Origin: Steroidobacteraceae bacterium
GTDB lineage: Bacteria; Pseudomonadota; Gammaproteobacteria; Steroidobacterales; Steroidobacteraceae
Reading direction: 5' to 3'
NCBI GenBank assembly: GCA_019683695.1
Contig: JADGHX010000021.1
Span: 1 to 41,510, forward strand
Length of the DNA stretch: 41,510 nt
Each line of letters begins with the position of its first letter. The first letter of the stretch is position 1. The position numbers and the translations under genes are program-made. Positions 4,780 to 29,360 of this stretch are shown piece after piece. The notes under the pieces were generated by a model. It did not search any database. It was not told the origin of the DNA and worked only from the letters and a program-made list of their open reading frames with translations.

Positions 4780-4872
4780 CCACGCTTGCGCGGTAGGCGT
4801 GCGCTCTCAACTTGCGCAGCCGGGGCGGTATGCTTGCCGGAACCGGGCATTCCTCGGGGAGTCTCACCCGCC

Positions 4873-5871
4873 ATGACTCGATCGCGATTGCGCTTGCCTT
4901 CACTGCGCGTTCTGACCTTGCTGCTGGCGGTTGCCGGCGCGCTGCTCGGGCCCGTTGCGGCCAGTGCGGCGGACAAGCCCAATAGCGCACAGCGGCGTGC
5001 TGTTGAGCAATACCTCGATGCGGTCGCCACCGGGAGCCCGGATGCGGTGGCGTATGCGATTCACCCTGCGGAACTTGAGGCGCTGCGTACGACGATTCTC
5101 ACCAAGCTGCGGGAGGAGGCGGGCCGCGGTGAGAGCCTGTTGCGCAGCCGACTCTTCGGGCGCGGCCGATCGCTCGGCGAACTGGAGCGGCTGACGCCCA
5201 TCGACTTCTACTCGGCGCTCGCCAGCAGGCTCTATCTCTTCGGCCGGAATTATCGGGACGCGGATTGGCTGGCGGCCATTCCGGACCGCGACGGCGTCGT
5301 GCAGGTGGTGCTGCGAGGCAAGCCCGCGAAGGAGCGTGGCACCGTGGACGTGCTCGGCGACGTGGAGGTGGTGAACGTCGTTTCCATCCGCCCGTATGGC
5401 AAGGACTGGAAGGCGACGATCCCCTCAGAGATCAAGGCGCAGATCGACGACCTCGCGAACTCCCGGCGCAGCATTTACGCCGGCCTGCCGCCGCCCGGCG
5501 GAGCGTCGGGCCCGTCGCGCCCGGGCACCGGTTCGAAGGAAGCCAGCATTCCGCCGGGTATCACCGAGCTGCTCAATGCCGCCGACAAGGCGCTGGCGGT
5601 GCCGAGTTGCGAGGACTACTACCGCAAGTACATGAGCCCGAACTTCCGCAAGGTCACCTCGAAGCAGGCCATGGACGACCTGATCGAGACCTGCATGAGC
5701 AGCCTCGGCACGCGGGAGATGCTCGCGGCCACGGTGCGCATCGTGAAAGACCTCGTGCCGAAGCTCGAGTACGAGGGCCGGCGCGCGGTGTACGACCTGA
5801 GCGGTCAGGGGCTGCCCTTCGACCGGTTCGTCCTCGAGCAGGTGGACAAGAAGTGGTACATCGCGGAGTAA
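4873..5871 (+). CDS. exported protein of unknown function
   Basis: A 332-residue protein I do not recognise. It opens with a convincing signal peptide (Arg-rich start, hydrophobic core 12-27, probable cleavage after ASA at about 33). The mature part appears to have two halves joined by a Gly/Pro/Ser linker at about 205-228. Each half starts with an amphipathic helix plus an acidic/small-residue stretch and ends in strands, and the C-terminus FVLEQVDKKWYIAE is the kind of ending seen in NTF2-like/SnoaL folds; this resemblance is only an impression. The start is the ATG at 4873, preceded by GGGGAG and beginning the signal peptide; a longer frame to 4786 would bury it. It may be co-transcribed with the EEP-family gene upstream. 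Confidence 0.8.
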   Translation: MTRSRLRLPSLRVLTLLLAVAGALLGPVAASAADKPNSAQRRAVEQYLDAVATGSPDAVAYAIHPAELEALRTTILTKLREEAGRGESLLRSRLFGRGRSLGELERLTPIDFYSALASRLYLFGRNYRDADWLAAIPDRDGVVQVVLRGKPAKERGTVDVLGDVEVVNVVSIRPYGKDWKATIPSEIKAQIDDLANSRRSIYAGLPPPGGASGPSRPGTGSKEASIPPGITELLNAADKALAVPSCEDYYRKYMSPNFRKVTSKQAMDDLIETCMSSLGTREMLAATVRIVKDLVPKLEYEGRRAVYDLSGQGLPFDRFVLEQVDKKWYIAE

Positions 5872-5878
5872 CGGGCTC

Positions 5879-5973
5879 TTCCACGTCGAGATCCGTGCCG
5901 TGATGCTGAGCCGCTCATCGCGCGCGGAGAGCAGCACGTTGGCGAGGACGGGCATGATCTGCCGGTGCCCGAC
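5879..5973 (-). pseudogene. dnaN: short frameshifted fragment of dnaN (DNA polymerase III beta clamp)
   Basis: Read on the minus strand, this gap encodes about 32 residues matching the region near residues 20-50 of beta clamps: VGHRQIMPVLANVLL, SARDERLSITA, then TDLDVE. The conserved pattern is R-Q-x-M/L-P-V/I-L-A-N-V-L, then LSITATDLDVE. A one-base deletion near 5896 separates ITA from TDLDVE. No more of the clamp is visible on either side: downstream the sequence runs at once into the end of the exported-protein gene, and upstream it fades before gspB. There is no start codon context. It is a remnant, not a gene. The match is by eye but long and ordered enough to be unlikely by chance. Confidence 0.7.
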
Positions 5974-5990
5974 CCCGCACGGTTCGCCCG

Positions 5991-6857
5991 TCAATCGCGG
6001 TACATGACGAACTGCGAGCCCTTGTAGGAGAGGATCGCACCGTCTGCCGTAATCGACTCAACCTTGACGCCATCCGGAAGGGACTCGCCTTCGTTGAGGC
6101 GCTTCATGTTCACCATCACGAAGCGCTTCGTCGGATCCGCGGCGTACACGTGCAGGTCCATGCGCAGGGGCGGCAGACTGATGCGCGTGGCAGCTTCGTC
6201 GTATGTGGGGAGTCCGCTGAGCGTGCCTCGGCGCGCGTACACGTGTTCCGCATTGTTTGAGGGCCGCTCCGGCTCGATGGCGGGCGCGTAGTCGTCCGGA
6301 TTCACCTCTTCGGCGGCAGGCTGAGGCGCGTAGGCCGGTGCAGCCGAAGACCCTGCGCCCTGCTGCTGGAATCCCGGAGACGCGGGTGCAGGCACATGGC
6401 CCGCGTACGGTGCTGCGCCGGGACCGCCTGCAACCTGGGGTTGTGTACCCATCTGAGGCCACGCGGGCGGCGGCGCCTGCATGGGCTGCGGCATGGCGTA
6501 GTAACCCTGAGCGCCCGGCATCTGTACCGGGGTGCCCGTCTGCGGCGGCATTGCGTACTGTGGAGCCGGCGCTGCGTAGATCGGCTGAGCGGGAGTCGGT
6601 GCGGGTTGTGTCGCGGGGGCGGGCCGCTGGGCAGGCTGCGGCGCGGACTGCTCGTGAGTGGTGCTTGCAACCGCGGGCCGCTTCATCATGAGCCAGCTGA
6701 TCACGGCGAGATTCACGACCAGCAGCGCGCCAAGCGCCACAGCCCAGGTGGGCAGTCGTGTGCGCGGCGGCGCCACTCGCACTTCGAACAACGCCGGCCC
6801 GCTCTGCCGCTGGCGGTCGTTCTCGGATTTCTTCAGGGCATCCAGAATGAATGACAT
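5991..6857 (-). CDS. gspB: type II secretion assembly protein GspB
   Basis: A 288-residue bitopic inner-membrane protein. The short cytoplasmic N-terminus has the family signature MSFILDALKKSENDRQR, followed by a transmembrane helix at about 36-58, a long Pro/Ala/Gln-rich periplasmic linker (about 60-195) and a C-terminal GspB/PulB domain (about 205-286, ending in KGSQFVMYRD). GspB works with the ATPase GspA to insert or assemble the GspD secretin of the type II secretion system, probably by remodelling peptidoglycan. It starts three bases after the stop of gspA, so the two are one transcription unit. The rest of the type II machinery is not in this window. Confidence 0.92.
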   Translation of the reverse strand: MSFILDALKKSENDRQRQSGPALFEVRVAPPRTRLPTWAVALGALLVVNLAVISWLMMKRPAVASTTHEQSAPQPAQRPAPATQPAPTPAQPIYAAPAPQYAMPPQTGTPVQMPGAQGYYAMPQPMQAPPPAWPQMGTQPQVAGGPGAAPYAGHVPAPASPGFQQQGAGSSAAPAYAPQPAAEEVNPDDYAPAIEPERPSNNAEHVYARRGTLSGLPTYDEAATRISLPPLRMDLHVYAADPTKRFVMVNMKRLNEGESLPDGVKVESITADGAILSYKGSQFVMYRD

Positions 6858-10608: not shown

Positions 10609-10750
10609 GGATTCTCCTTCCAAAATCGTGAGCGACGCGGCCACGCAGGAGCCGCGCCTTCAGCTTAGCGAGCTTCGGCGCCCGGGGCCACGGCGGCCCC
10701 CGATTCGCTCACACTGTGATCAGTCTTGCCGGATCGCCGCTTCCGGGCCT

Positions 10751-15443: not shown

Positions 15444-16171
15444 GTCTCAGGCTCCTCAACTGCGGCGGCCACCGATGCGCGCTCGGGTCCGGGTCGTTGG
15501 GCCGACATCGCCGCCCGCAGCTTGGCCAGCGCATACCGCAGGCGGCTCTTGGCCGTTTCCATGCTCACGCCGCAGATCTCCCCGATTTCGTGCAACGACA
15601 AACCCGATTCCTCGTACAGCAGGAAGGTGTCTCGCTGTTCCGCGGGCAACGCTGCCAGGGCCGAGCGGTATCGCGCGAACGTTTCGGCGTGCTCGGCGCG
15701 CGCATCCGGCAAGTCGGCCGCGGGTGCCGGAAGCGTGTTTTCCAGACTCAGATCGTCGGTCATCAAGCTTGTGCGATCACCACGTCCCGTGCGCCGGCAG
15801 TGATCAATAAAGCAGTTGTGCGCGATTCGATACAGGAAGGTGCTGAACTTCGCGCGTGGCTCGTAGCGGGCGCGGCTCGCGATCACCTTGCCCCACACTT
15901 CCTGGAAGAGGTCATTCGCGACCTCGGGATCTCGCGTGTGACGCGCGAGATAGCGATACAACGCAGTCCGATGACGGCGATAAAGCATCTCGAAGGCGGG
16001 CATGTCGCCGGCCGCGTAGCGCACCATGAGCTCGCCGTCTTCCACTTCGGTCATCGGTAGGACTCTACGCGCGGCGACCGGGCGTCGGAACCGCGTAGGC
16101 GCACGCTCCGCGCCCTTGCACCCCATCTCGGGAGGCACCTCTTCCGCCTCCGCACACAGCGATGAATTCAT
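15440..16171 (-). CDS. ECF-type RNA polymerase sigma factor
   Basis: A sigma-70 family protein of 243 residues as drawn. Region 2: MLYRRHRTALYRYLARH, DLFQEVWGKVI and FSTFLYRIAHNCFIDHCRR; region 4: ALAALPAEQRDTFLLYEESG with the helix-turn-helix SLHEIGEICGVSMETAKSRLR. It would redirect RNA polymerase to a small regulon. The start is uncertain: the first ATG (16171) gives a 39-residue Arg/Pro-rich extension after a GAGGGTGGG stretch, whereas ATG at 16054 (MTEVEDGEL) starts directly at region 2 and matches usual family length. It is coupled by a 4-bp overlap to the anti-sigma-like gene and divergent from the GntR operon. Confidence 0.88.
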   Translation of the reverse strand: MNSSLCAEAEEVPPEMGCKGAERAPTRFRRPVAARRVLPMTEVEDGELMVRYAAGDMPAFEMLYRRHRTALYRYLARHTRDPEVANDLFQEVWGKVIASRARYEPRAKFSTFLYRIAHNCFIDHCRRTGRGDRTSLMTDDLSLENTLPAPAADLPDARAEHAETFARYRSALAALPAEQRDTFLLYEESGLSLHEIGEICGVSMETAKSRLRYALAKLRAAMSAQRPGPERASVAAAVEEPET

Positions 16172-16292
16172 CGACCCACCCTCGTCAGGGACGTGCTGAA
16201 ACGGGCGTGAGCCGGCAATCGGGTGATTCGGGGCTGTCTGGCGGGCCCGCCGGGTGGGGAAGGGCCCTCCGGCAGCGGCACGCTGATGTGGC

Positions 16293-16322
16293 TTGACACT
16301 CGTCTAGTGATGTAGTTATATA
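16293..16322 (+). promoter_or_regulatory. sigma-70-type promoter of the GntR/ABC operon
   Basis: A perfect -35 TTGACA (16293-16298) and a -10 TATATA (16317-16322) with an 18-bp spacer; TTATAT at 16316 would give 17. This is the best housekeeping promoter in the window and is AT-rich against its surroundings. It points at the 66-residue membrane peptide gene at 16382. Confidence 0.8.
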
Positions 16323-16330
16323 TAACACCA
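16311..16330. promoter_or_regulatory. palindromic operator overlapping the -10
   Basis: The core GTTATATATAAC (16315-16326) is a perfect 12-bp palindrome, and flanking TG (16311-16312) and CA (16329-16330) extend the symmetry to 20 bp with two unmatched bases on each side. It covers the -10 element, an ideal place for repression. The GntR-type regulator encoded 300 bp downstream in the same operon is the likely binder, giving autoregulation as is common for YtrA-like repressors. Binding is inferred. Confidence 0.6.
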
Positions 16331-16381
16331 AGACGAGCGGTTCGCGGGGTCGTGAACCGACGCAGCTGAGGAGAGCACGTC

Positions 16382-16582
16382 ATGAACACCTTCGAGCATG
16401 CCGGTTTGAGAGTGGCAGCCTGCAGTGTCGTTGCGGTCGCGATCACGCTGGCTTTGAGCTGGACCTTCGTCGAATCGACCGCGGTCGTGCGCAACTATGC
16501 GGTGCCTGGCCAGGTGCTGGCGGCTGCTGACGCGAGTCCCACCCTGCTGGCGAAGGCCGGGTCCACTGGTCTGCTACAGTAG
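16382..16582 (+). CDS. small membrane protein, first gene of the GntR/ABC operon
   Basis: A 66-residue protein with one hydrophobic helix (about 9-28: LRVAACSVVAVAITLALSWT). It has a strong ribosome-binding site, GAGGAG (16368-16373) eight bases before the ATG, and lies directly downstream of a near-consensus promoter. The GntR gene begins 38 bp after its stop, so it is probably the first cistron. I do not recognise a named family. It may assist or sense for the ABC exporter, but this is inference from position. Confidence 0.65.
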   Translation: MNTFEHAGLRVAACSVVAVAITLALSWTFVESTAVVRNYAVPGQVLAAADASPTLLAKAGSTGLLQ

Positions 16583-16620
16583 TTGGCTAACAGCCTGCAA
16601 CGGGGCGCAGCGGAGCATTC

Positions 16621-17031
16621 ATGGACCCACAGTGGGACGACAGCCTGCCGATCTACCGGCAACTGCGCGACCGGGTGGTGGCCATGATCCTCGAGGGCGC
16701 GCTGAAGGAAGGCGATCCGTTGCCGTCGGTGCGCAGCGTCGCGGCTGAGTTCAGGCTGAATCCCCTGACCGTCCTGAAGGGTTACCAGCAGCTCGTCGAC
16801 GAGCGGCTCGTCGAGAAACGCCGTGGCCGGGGGATGTTCGTGAGCGAGGGTGCGCGCAAGGCGCTCTTGAAAGACGAGCGGGCGCGCTTCCTCGAAGAGG
16901 AGTGGCCACGGGTGTACGCCACCATCCAGCGCCTCGGACTTTCCGCTGCAGAGCTGCTTCGCAACGGCGCACCACCGCCCGCAACTCCGTGGCCCTCCAC
17001 GCCAGGACAAGAACATGACGACGGTAATTGA
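16621..17031 (+). CDS. GntR-family transcriptional regulator, YtrA type
   Basis: A 136-residue repressor: winged helix-turn-helix (about 8-75) with SLPIYRQLRDRVVAMILEGALKEGDPLPSVRSVAAEFRLN-type GntR pattern and the wing RRGRGMFVSEGA, then a short C-terminal helical tail (about 78-136) with no ligand-binding domain, which is the YtrA subfamily layout. Such regulators usually sit with ABC transporters and repress their own operon, relieved by cell-envelope-active compounds. GGAG precedes the ATG. It overlaps the ATPase gene by 17 bp. The likely operator is the palindrome at 16311-16330. Confidence 0.9.
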   Translation: MDPQWDDSLPIYRQLRDRVVAMILEGALKEGDPLPSVRSVAAEFRLNPLTVLKGYQQLVDERLVEKRRGRGMFVSEGARKALLKDERARFLEEEWPRVYATIQRLGLSAAELLRNGAPPPATPWPSTPGQEHDDGN

Positions 17032-28876: not shown

Positions 28877-29360
28877 ATCAAACCGGAAACCGCACGCCTT
28901 CCCTCCGCTGCGCGCGGCAGTCTAGGTTACGCCTCCCCTCGGCCACCAGCGAAGCCGCGCACAGTTTTTGTGAAAAGCATCGGACTGAGTCGCGCCGAAT
29001 TGCGCCCACATGGTCCGGGCCTCAACGCAGTGACGCACCTGCAAACGGAAGGTGCGATGCTCGTGATACGGACTATGTAAAGCGCAAAGAAGAACGGAAG
29101 CATGGAACGGGCGATCTCAACTGCCGTTCCGAGCCGCACGAACCGATGCGCGATCGCCTTCCTGCTGAGCGCTAGTCTTCTCCGGCCGCGAAGATAGCCA
29201 GGCGCTCGCGGTCTACCCACGCGCTGGAACGTCAGCAAACCAGAGGTTCACGCCCTTGGCGCGGTCGATCGGGCAGACCTGCGCTAAGTCCTCACGCACC
29301 GGGAACAAGGTTGTTGCAGCCGCAACCTGCACGCTCAGGCTTGCGCTGCAACCCACGTCG
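28877..29360. other. 484-bp gap with no recognised gene, mixed composition
   Basis: This is the longest internal gap. Stretches near 28960-28980 and 29070-29110 are clearly less GC-rich than the surroundings. On the minus strand an open frame covers 28927-29238 (103 codons), with a hydrophobic patch MLPFFFALYIV, and another ends at 29213 with KGVNLWFADVPARG. Neither has a good ribosome-binding site or a family I know. It may be a decayed insertion or dispersed repeat. No tRNA or clear terminator is visible. Confidence 0.5.

Follow-up and report, generated by a model that had tools for sequence, protein, structure and literature searches.

Dispersed intergenic fragments of the dnaN side of the replication origin in a Steroidobacteraceae genome

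Main finding

The minus strand of positions 5880-5974 of the window (the whole stretch of DNA analysed, 41,510 nucleotides) is a copy of nucleotides 60-155 (codons ~20-52) of the genome's own dnaN, and is one of about 60 origin-side pieces in this genome. The pieces trace to a single donor zone of ~5 kb with the order yidC/yidD-rnpA-rpmH-dnaA-[oriC]-dnaN-recF. We propose, at even odds, that they are some 60 copy-paste templated insertions of origin-side DNA captured at double-strand breaks, mediated by Ku/LigD or by microhomology.

A partial copy of dnaN between convergent genes

The first-pass annotation had described a scrap of the clamp gene on the minus strand, near residues 20-50, with one base lost near 5896 and the rest of dnaN missing. 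The alignment to the donor (G000:C129:44098-44193) bears this out, with 92.7% identity over 96 columns and E = 1.1e-32 in the search of the whole genome with the dnaN region. One donor base is lost at about position 5900, and the remainder of dnaN is absent from this locus, where only nt 60-155 lie between the convergent genes. The insert fills 95 of the 119 bp separating the convergent stop codons at 5871 and 5991. The features of this window and the intact donor gene are the following.

4786-5871, plus strand: gene on the left, encoding 361 aa without a Pfam match; its stop lies 8 bp before the insert
5880-5974, minus strand: dnaN-derived insert, copy of dnaN nt 60-155, one base deleted
5991-6857, minus strand: convergent gene on the right, encoding type II secretion system protein B (GspB, PF16537); its stop codon is found 16 bp past the insert
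29134-29186, minus strand: second dnaN-derived insert, dnaN nt ~243-301 (donor C129:44281-44339), 81% identity, between two minus-strand genes
G000:C129:44039-45136: intact dnaN, encoding 365 aa and all three Pfam clamp domains

An Rfam search of window positions 5500-6300 gave no RNA family match. An exact 21-bp match at 10679-10699 was taken as chance (E 0.005). The window also holds short local direct repeats, 83-84% identical (41195-41280/41347-41430 and 17451-17498/20941-20988). The search of the same genome and of other loci that the first-pass annotation had called for returned an intact dnaN on another contig, confirming the segment as a duplication scrap of it, and dozens of sister scraps genome-wide.

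Number of pieces and their donor zone

Besides the insert at 5880-5974, about 60 further pieces were found, 26-230 bp long and 74-100% identical to the donor. Our local tabulation comprises 76 alignments to C129:41.0-45.4 kb with a median length of 88.5 bp; 63 of them have E ≤ 1.2e-6, the E-values referring to a sub-sample of the genome and not to the whole. About five more pieces, beyond these 76, derive from recF. The counts obtained with separate queries are lower bounds, each search having scored only 40 candidates: at least 22 genome places for a 151-bp stretch, at least 43 for the dnaN region, at least 9 for dnaA (besides dnaA proper), at least 4 for the rnpA/yidD/yidC side and at least 7, some of them weak, for recF. 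A nearly random sample of 243 kb, from which contig C205 was left out because it had been picked for its matches, contained one piece, a density consistent with a few dozen in the whole genome. The assembly consists of 312 contigs, with a completeness of 97.65% and 1.54% contamination.

The use of the donor zone is uneven and reveals a hotspot. Depth reaches its maximum of 24 at dnaN nt 60-110 (C129 44101-44150), is still 15-16 at 44.25-44.35 kb (nt 210-310) and falls to ~4 by 44.6 kb (nt 600). It is 0-2 past the first ~600 bp of dnaN and across dnaA, rnpA, yidD and recF, and zero from 43,749 to 44,045, an interval that spans the gap between dnaA and dnaN. This gap contains an AT-rich stretch that adjoins dnaN and four sites resembling DnaA boxes, one a perfect match and three with a single mismatch, where the background expectation is 0.02 per 260 bp; relatives have 1-4 DnaA boxes in the equivalent stretch. 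On the strength of these motifs and of the comparable sites in relatives, the gap is very probably oriC. Its zero depth could be due to a barrier, to additional origin pieces being selected against or to a more rapid change of the donor. The peak is one-sided, with much greater depth over dnaN than over dnaA, a pattern not expected from a simple symmetric effect of the origin.

A control region of 3.7 kb used as query returned zero pieces genome-wide. An all-against-all comparison of 672 kb revealed no other single donor gene with short dispersed copies at ≥78% identity, the remaining matches being only separate repeat families and ordinary paralogues. At least three dispersed families of intergenic type, 80-430 bp, partly tandem, with several members at contig ends, are unrelated to the origin zone.

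Repeat family: C75:7223-7507, C90:5623-6022 and 16142-16863, C280:3323-3529
Repeat family: C100:6624-6800, C214:86-738, C281:276-735, C74:17467-17969
Repeat family: C115:650-751, C205:76885-77154, C235:2889-3132

The contig C20 (5,026 bp) carries exact 99-bp inverted copies at its ends (1-99 and 4928-5026), and the same sequence occurs once at the end of C295 (6064-6161); these are possibly an assembly effect or the terminal repeats of an element. Elsewhere in the genome, L091:10871-10968 (G000:C281:50871-50968) matches the anti-hemB RNA RF02837, a family described from Burkholderia, above the gathering score.

Insertion sites and joins

According to a simple home-made gene caller, the sites for which both neighbours are known comprise 28 convergent, 26 tandem and 8 divergent gaps, and only two short weak matches fall inside genes. 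The edges of the pieces are sharp. Their ends vary, with a mild clustering (P ~0.015-0.02) that remains unexplained, and no consistent target-site duplication was found among the 22 pieces of ≥90% identity that were inspected. In six composite inserts, two donor pieces abut with an overlap of 1-5 bp. This number is too small to rule out chance, and some of the pieces are individually weak.

C70: dnaN and inverted dnaN
C166: dnaN and inverted dnaN
C288: dnaA and inverted dnaN
C16: two dnaN pieces
C176 and C270: composites of weak pieces

One site could be compared with its counterpart in relatives, all of them distant. The gene gyrB and a putative plsC (acyltransferase-like, named from its sequence) are adjacent here and in relatives. 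The gap between them measures 383 bp in this genome, with a dnaN piece of 231 bp, and 119 bp and 7 bp in two relatives (L104 and L108, respectively), neither of which has the piece. Judged from these gaps, the insertion site is empty in both. In a further relative (L111) the gap is 1,020 bp long and unrelated.

Decay and independence of the copies

Mismatches between the pieces and dnaN are spread almost evenly over the three codon positions (8.7/10.8/13.2%), unlike those of the true dnaN genes of relatives (13.8/5.2/49.7%), which indicates that the pieces decay without selection. In none of the 295 overlapping pairs of fragments is the distance between the two smaller than the distances of both from the donor, and the summed pair distances amount to 82% of the expectation for a perfect star. 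A few pairs share states. Part of the shared states, such as the A found at position 44314 in 15 of 15 pieces, fits an origin from earlier donor alleles, and some that fall at codon positions 1-2 would allow for a small amount of secondary copying. Where relatives differ, the pieces hold the dnaN states of their own lineage. On this comparative evidence, they are largely independent copies of the chromosomal dnaN that differ in age. Decay without selection, the absence of mutually closer pairs and the lineage-specific states thus imply that copying was repeated and spread over time.

Restriction to one lineage

When dnaN of this genome was searched against relatives of the same family, only their own dnaN and one 29-bp match were recovered. 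This is a weak test because dnaN diverges between genomes, so further searches of relatives used dnaN of the respective genome and a profile of the family. Seven relatives queried with the start of their own dnaN yielded that gene and no more than a single weak, short match besides it. A nucleotide profile covering dnaN nt 8-160 recovers most of the known hotspot pieces of this genome. Among 396 genomes of the order, it gave at least 7 matches here and at most 3 in any of the other 395 (mostly one, a few with two, one with three and some with none). This survey used strict filters and scored only 7 candidates per genome, such that weak cases may be missed, and the comparison set has no genome of the same genus. 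Within these bounds, the searches show the scraps to be restricted to this genome among those tested.

Other duplications near dnaN were seen in relatives. In L109:14959-15322 (VBMV01000087.1), a 235-bp copy (90%) of sequence lying ~350-560 bp upstream of that genome's dnaN abuts a copy of the sequence just after dnaN, ~4 kb downstream of the gene, forming a local origin-side composite. In L106:5449-8758 and L141:11747-13932, the stretch immediately downstream of dnaN recurs several times over a few kb.

Discussion

Under the proposed mechanism, short DNA (median ~90 bp) would arise beside the origin, mostly from the first ~350-600 bp of dnaN past the DnaA-box and AT-rich region. End joining, mediated by Ku/LigD or by microhomology, would capture these pieces at double-strand breaks of the chromosome and leave dnaN intact, and the inserts would persist only where they are harmless, between genes, decaying neutrally afterwards. 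Nascent or abortive origin-proximal DNA as the substrate, break repair as the event and Ku/LigD as the agent are all inferred; neither breaks nor nascent strands were observed, nor any dependence on the enzymes. Support for break capture comes from sequence comparison, without experiment and without a genome of the same species that shows an insertion event. More tentatively, and with the balance somewhat against it, the inserts may be fossil traces of replication that was aborted or reinitiated. In that case, short DNA from the dnaN side of oriC would be made often enough to serve as the main break filler, and the inserts would map where newborn strands start and how far they reach. Ku and LigD are enzymes able to join unrelated ends, and this genome encodes both, as in bacterial non-homologous end joining. 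There are three Ku genes, one beside a LigD of 937 aa and the others forming a tandem pair.

G000:C291:13482-17199 (L237:3483-7200): Ku-LigD gene pair
G000:C302:23934-25815 (L236:6935-8816): tandem Ku pair

These enzymes cannot alone explain the restriction to one lineage, since they are present in many genomes without such scraps.

Two other sources of the pieces are not excluded. A recurrent cut or fragile site around dnaN codon 30, made by a nuclease, a self-targeting defence or a restriction-like activity, could free them, the origin being merely a neighbour. We consider this unlikely but worth retaining: the depth peak lies within dnaN (44.10-44.15 kb) and drops on both sides, the starts and ends of pieces cluster mildly, and pieces of dnaA are much less common than those of dnaN, but hairpin and cruciform analysis of the hotspot found nothing unusual (fold z-scores of -0.4 and -1.3), and both the second shoulder at ~44.3 kb and the thin tail reaching 3 kb away fit a single cut poorly. 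Templating by RNA is somewhat less probable still. In this scenario a reverse transcriptase, such as one of the group II intron-like kind, would copy pieces of dnaN, dnaA, rnpA and recF transcripts into DNA at breaks, where they would be joined in. The start of the hotspot no more than 10 bp from the dnaN start codon and the lack of pieces from the dnaA-dnaN gap are what a dnaN transcript would predict as template, and no tabulated piece obviously crosses a gene boundary. However, abundant RNAs should then dominate, and no fragments of rRNA or other abundant RNA passed the gathering thresholds in 270 kb that included several fragment-rich contigs; nor did the control genes yield any piece. Moreover, the donor tail tracks map position to either side of the origin and takes in rnpA and yidD, which have the opposite orientation.

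The first-pass annotation had left a choice between an old recombination event, a mobile element that captured the sequence and a dispersed repeat with clamp sequence in it. The data fit copies made repeatedly and independently from the donor locus. The idea that a small mobile or self-spreading repeat (MITE- or REP-like) acquired dnaN sequence and then copied itself is largely refuted and keeps only a very small probability: there is no unit with fixed ends, and the copies did not descend from one another. The dispersal of dozens of copies over intergenic gaps, many of them convergent, does recall REP and MITE families, and a few fragment pairs share states. Against this, the ends vary over hundreds of bases, covering different parts of dnaN, dnaA, rnpA, yidD and recF; common terminal repeats and consistent target duplications are lacking; and the closest relative of a fragment is not another fragment. 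Least credible of all is a function as decoys or regulators, with clamp-gene pieces kept by selection, for example as antisense RNA to dnaN. The concentration on one part of the gene would suit such a role, but the pieces occur in both orientations with variable ends and a nearly flat decay over codon positions.

Most work on templated insertions concerns yeast and human cells. In rad27 and dna2 mutants of yeast they form at double-strand breaks, with a median of 88 bp in rad27; complex ones are often inverted, join two pieces of one locus and show microhomology, and their donors lie at replication-vulnerable sites (PMC11724301). The pieces described here resemble them in being short copy-paste segments (median ~89 bp) with the donor kept, in the sharp edges, in the two-piece and often inverted inserts, and in the concentration of donors at sites vulnerable during replication. 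They differ in being bacterial, natural and accumulated over evolution, in drawing on one ~5 kb zone beside the origin and not on many fragile loci, and in that no break was observed. With REP/BIME and MITE repeats they have in common that they are dispersed, short, intergenic and common between convergent genes, but they lack fixed ends, a common unit and copy-to-copy spread, and their source is a living essential gene. In a limited search of open papers, we found no bacterial case described of serial capture of host DNA from beside the origin, and nothing relevant on dispersed dnaN fragments.

For annotation, the clamp-like fragments of this genome are a warning, as they are not genes. They also show one way in which pieces of an essential gene come to make up bacterial intergenic DNA. 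If break capture is the true explanation, this would be a natural bacterial form of templated insertion that draws on a remarkably narrow zone next to the chromosomal origin, and the plain genome sequence would read out which DNA is free for capture during the initiation of replication.
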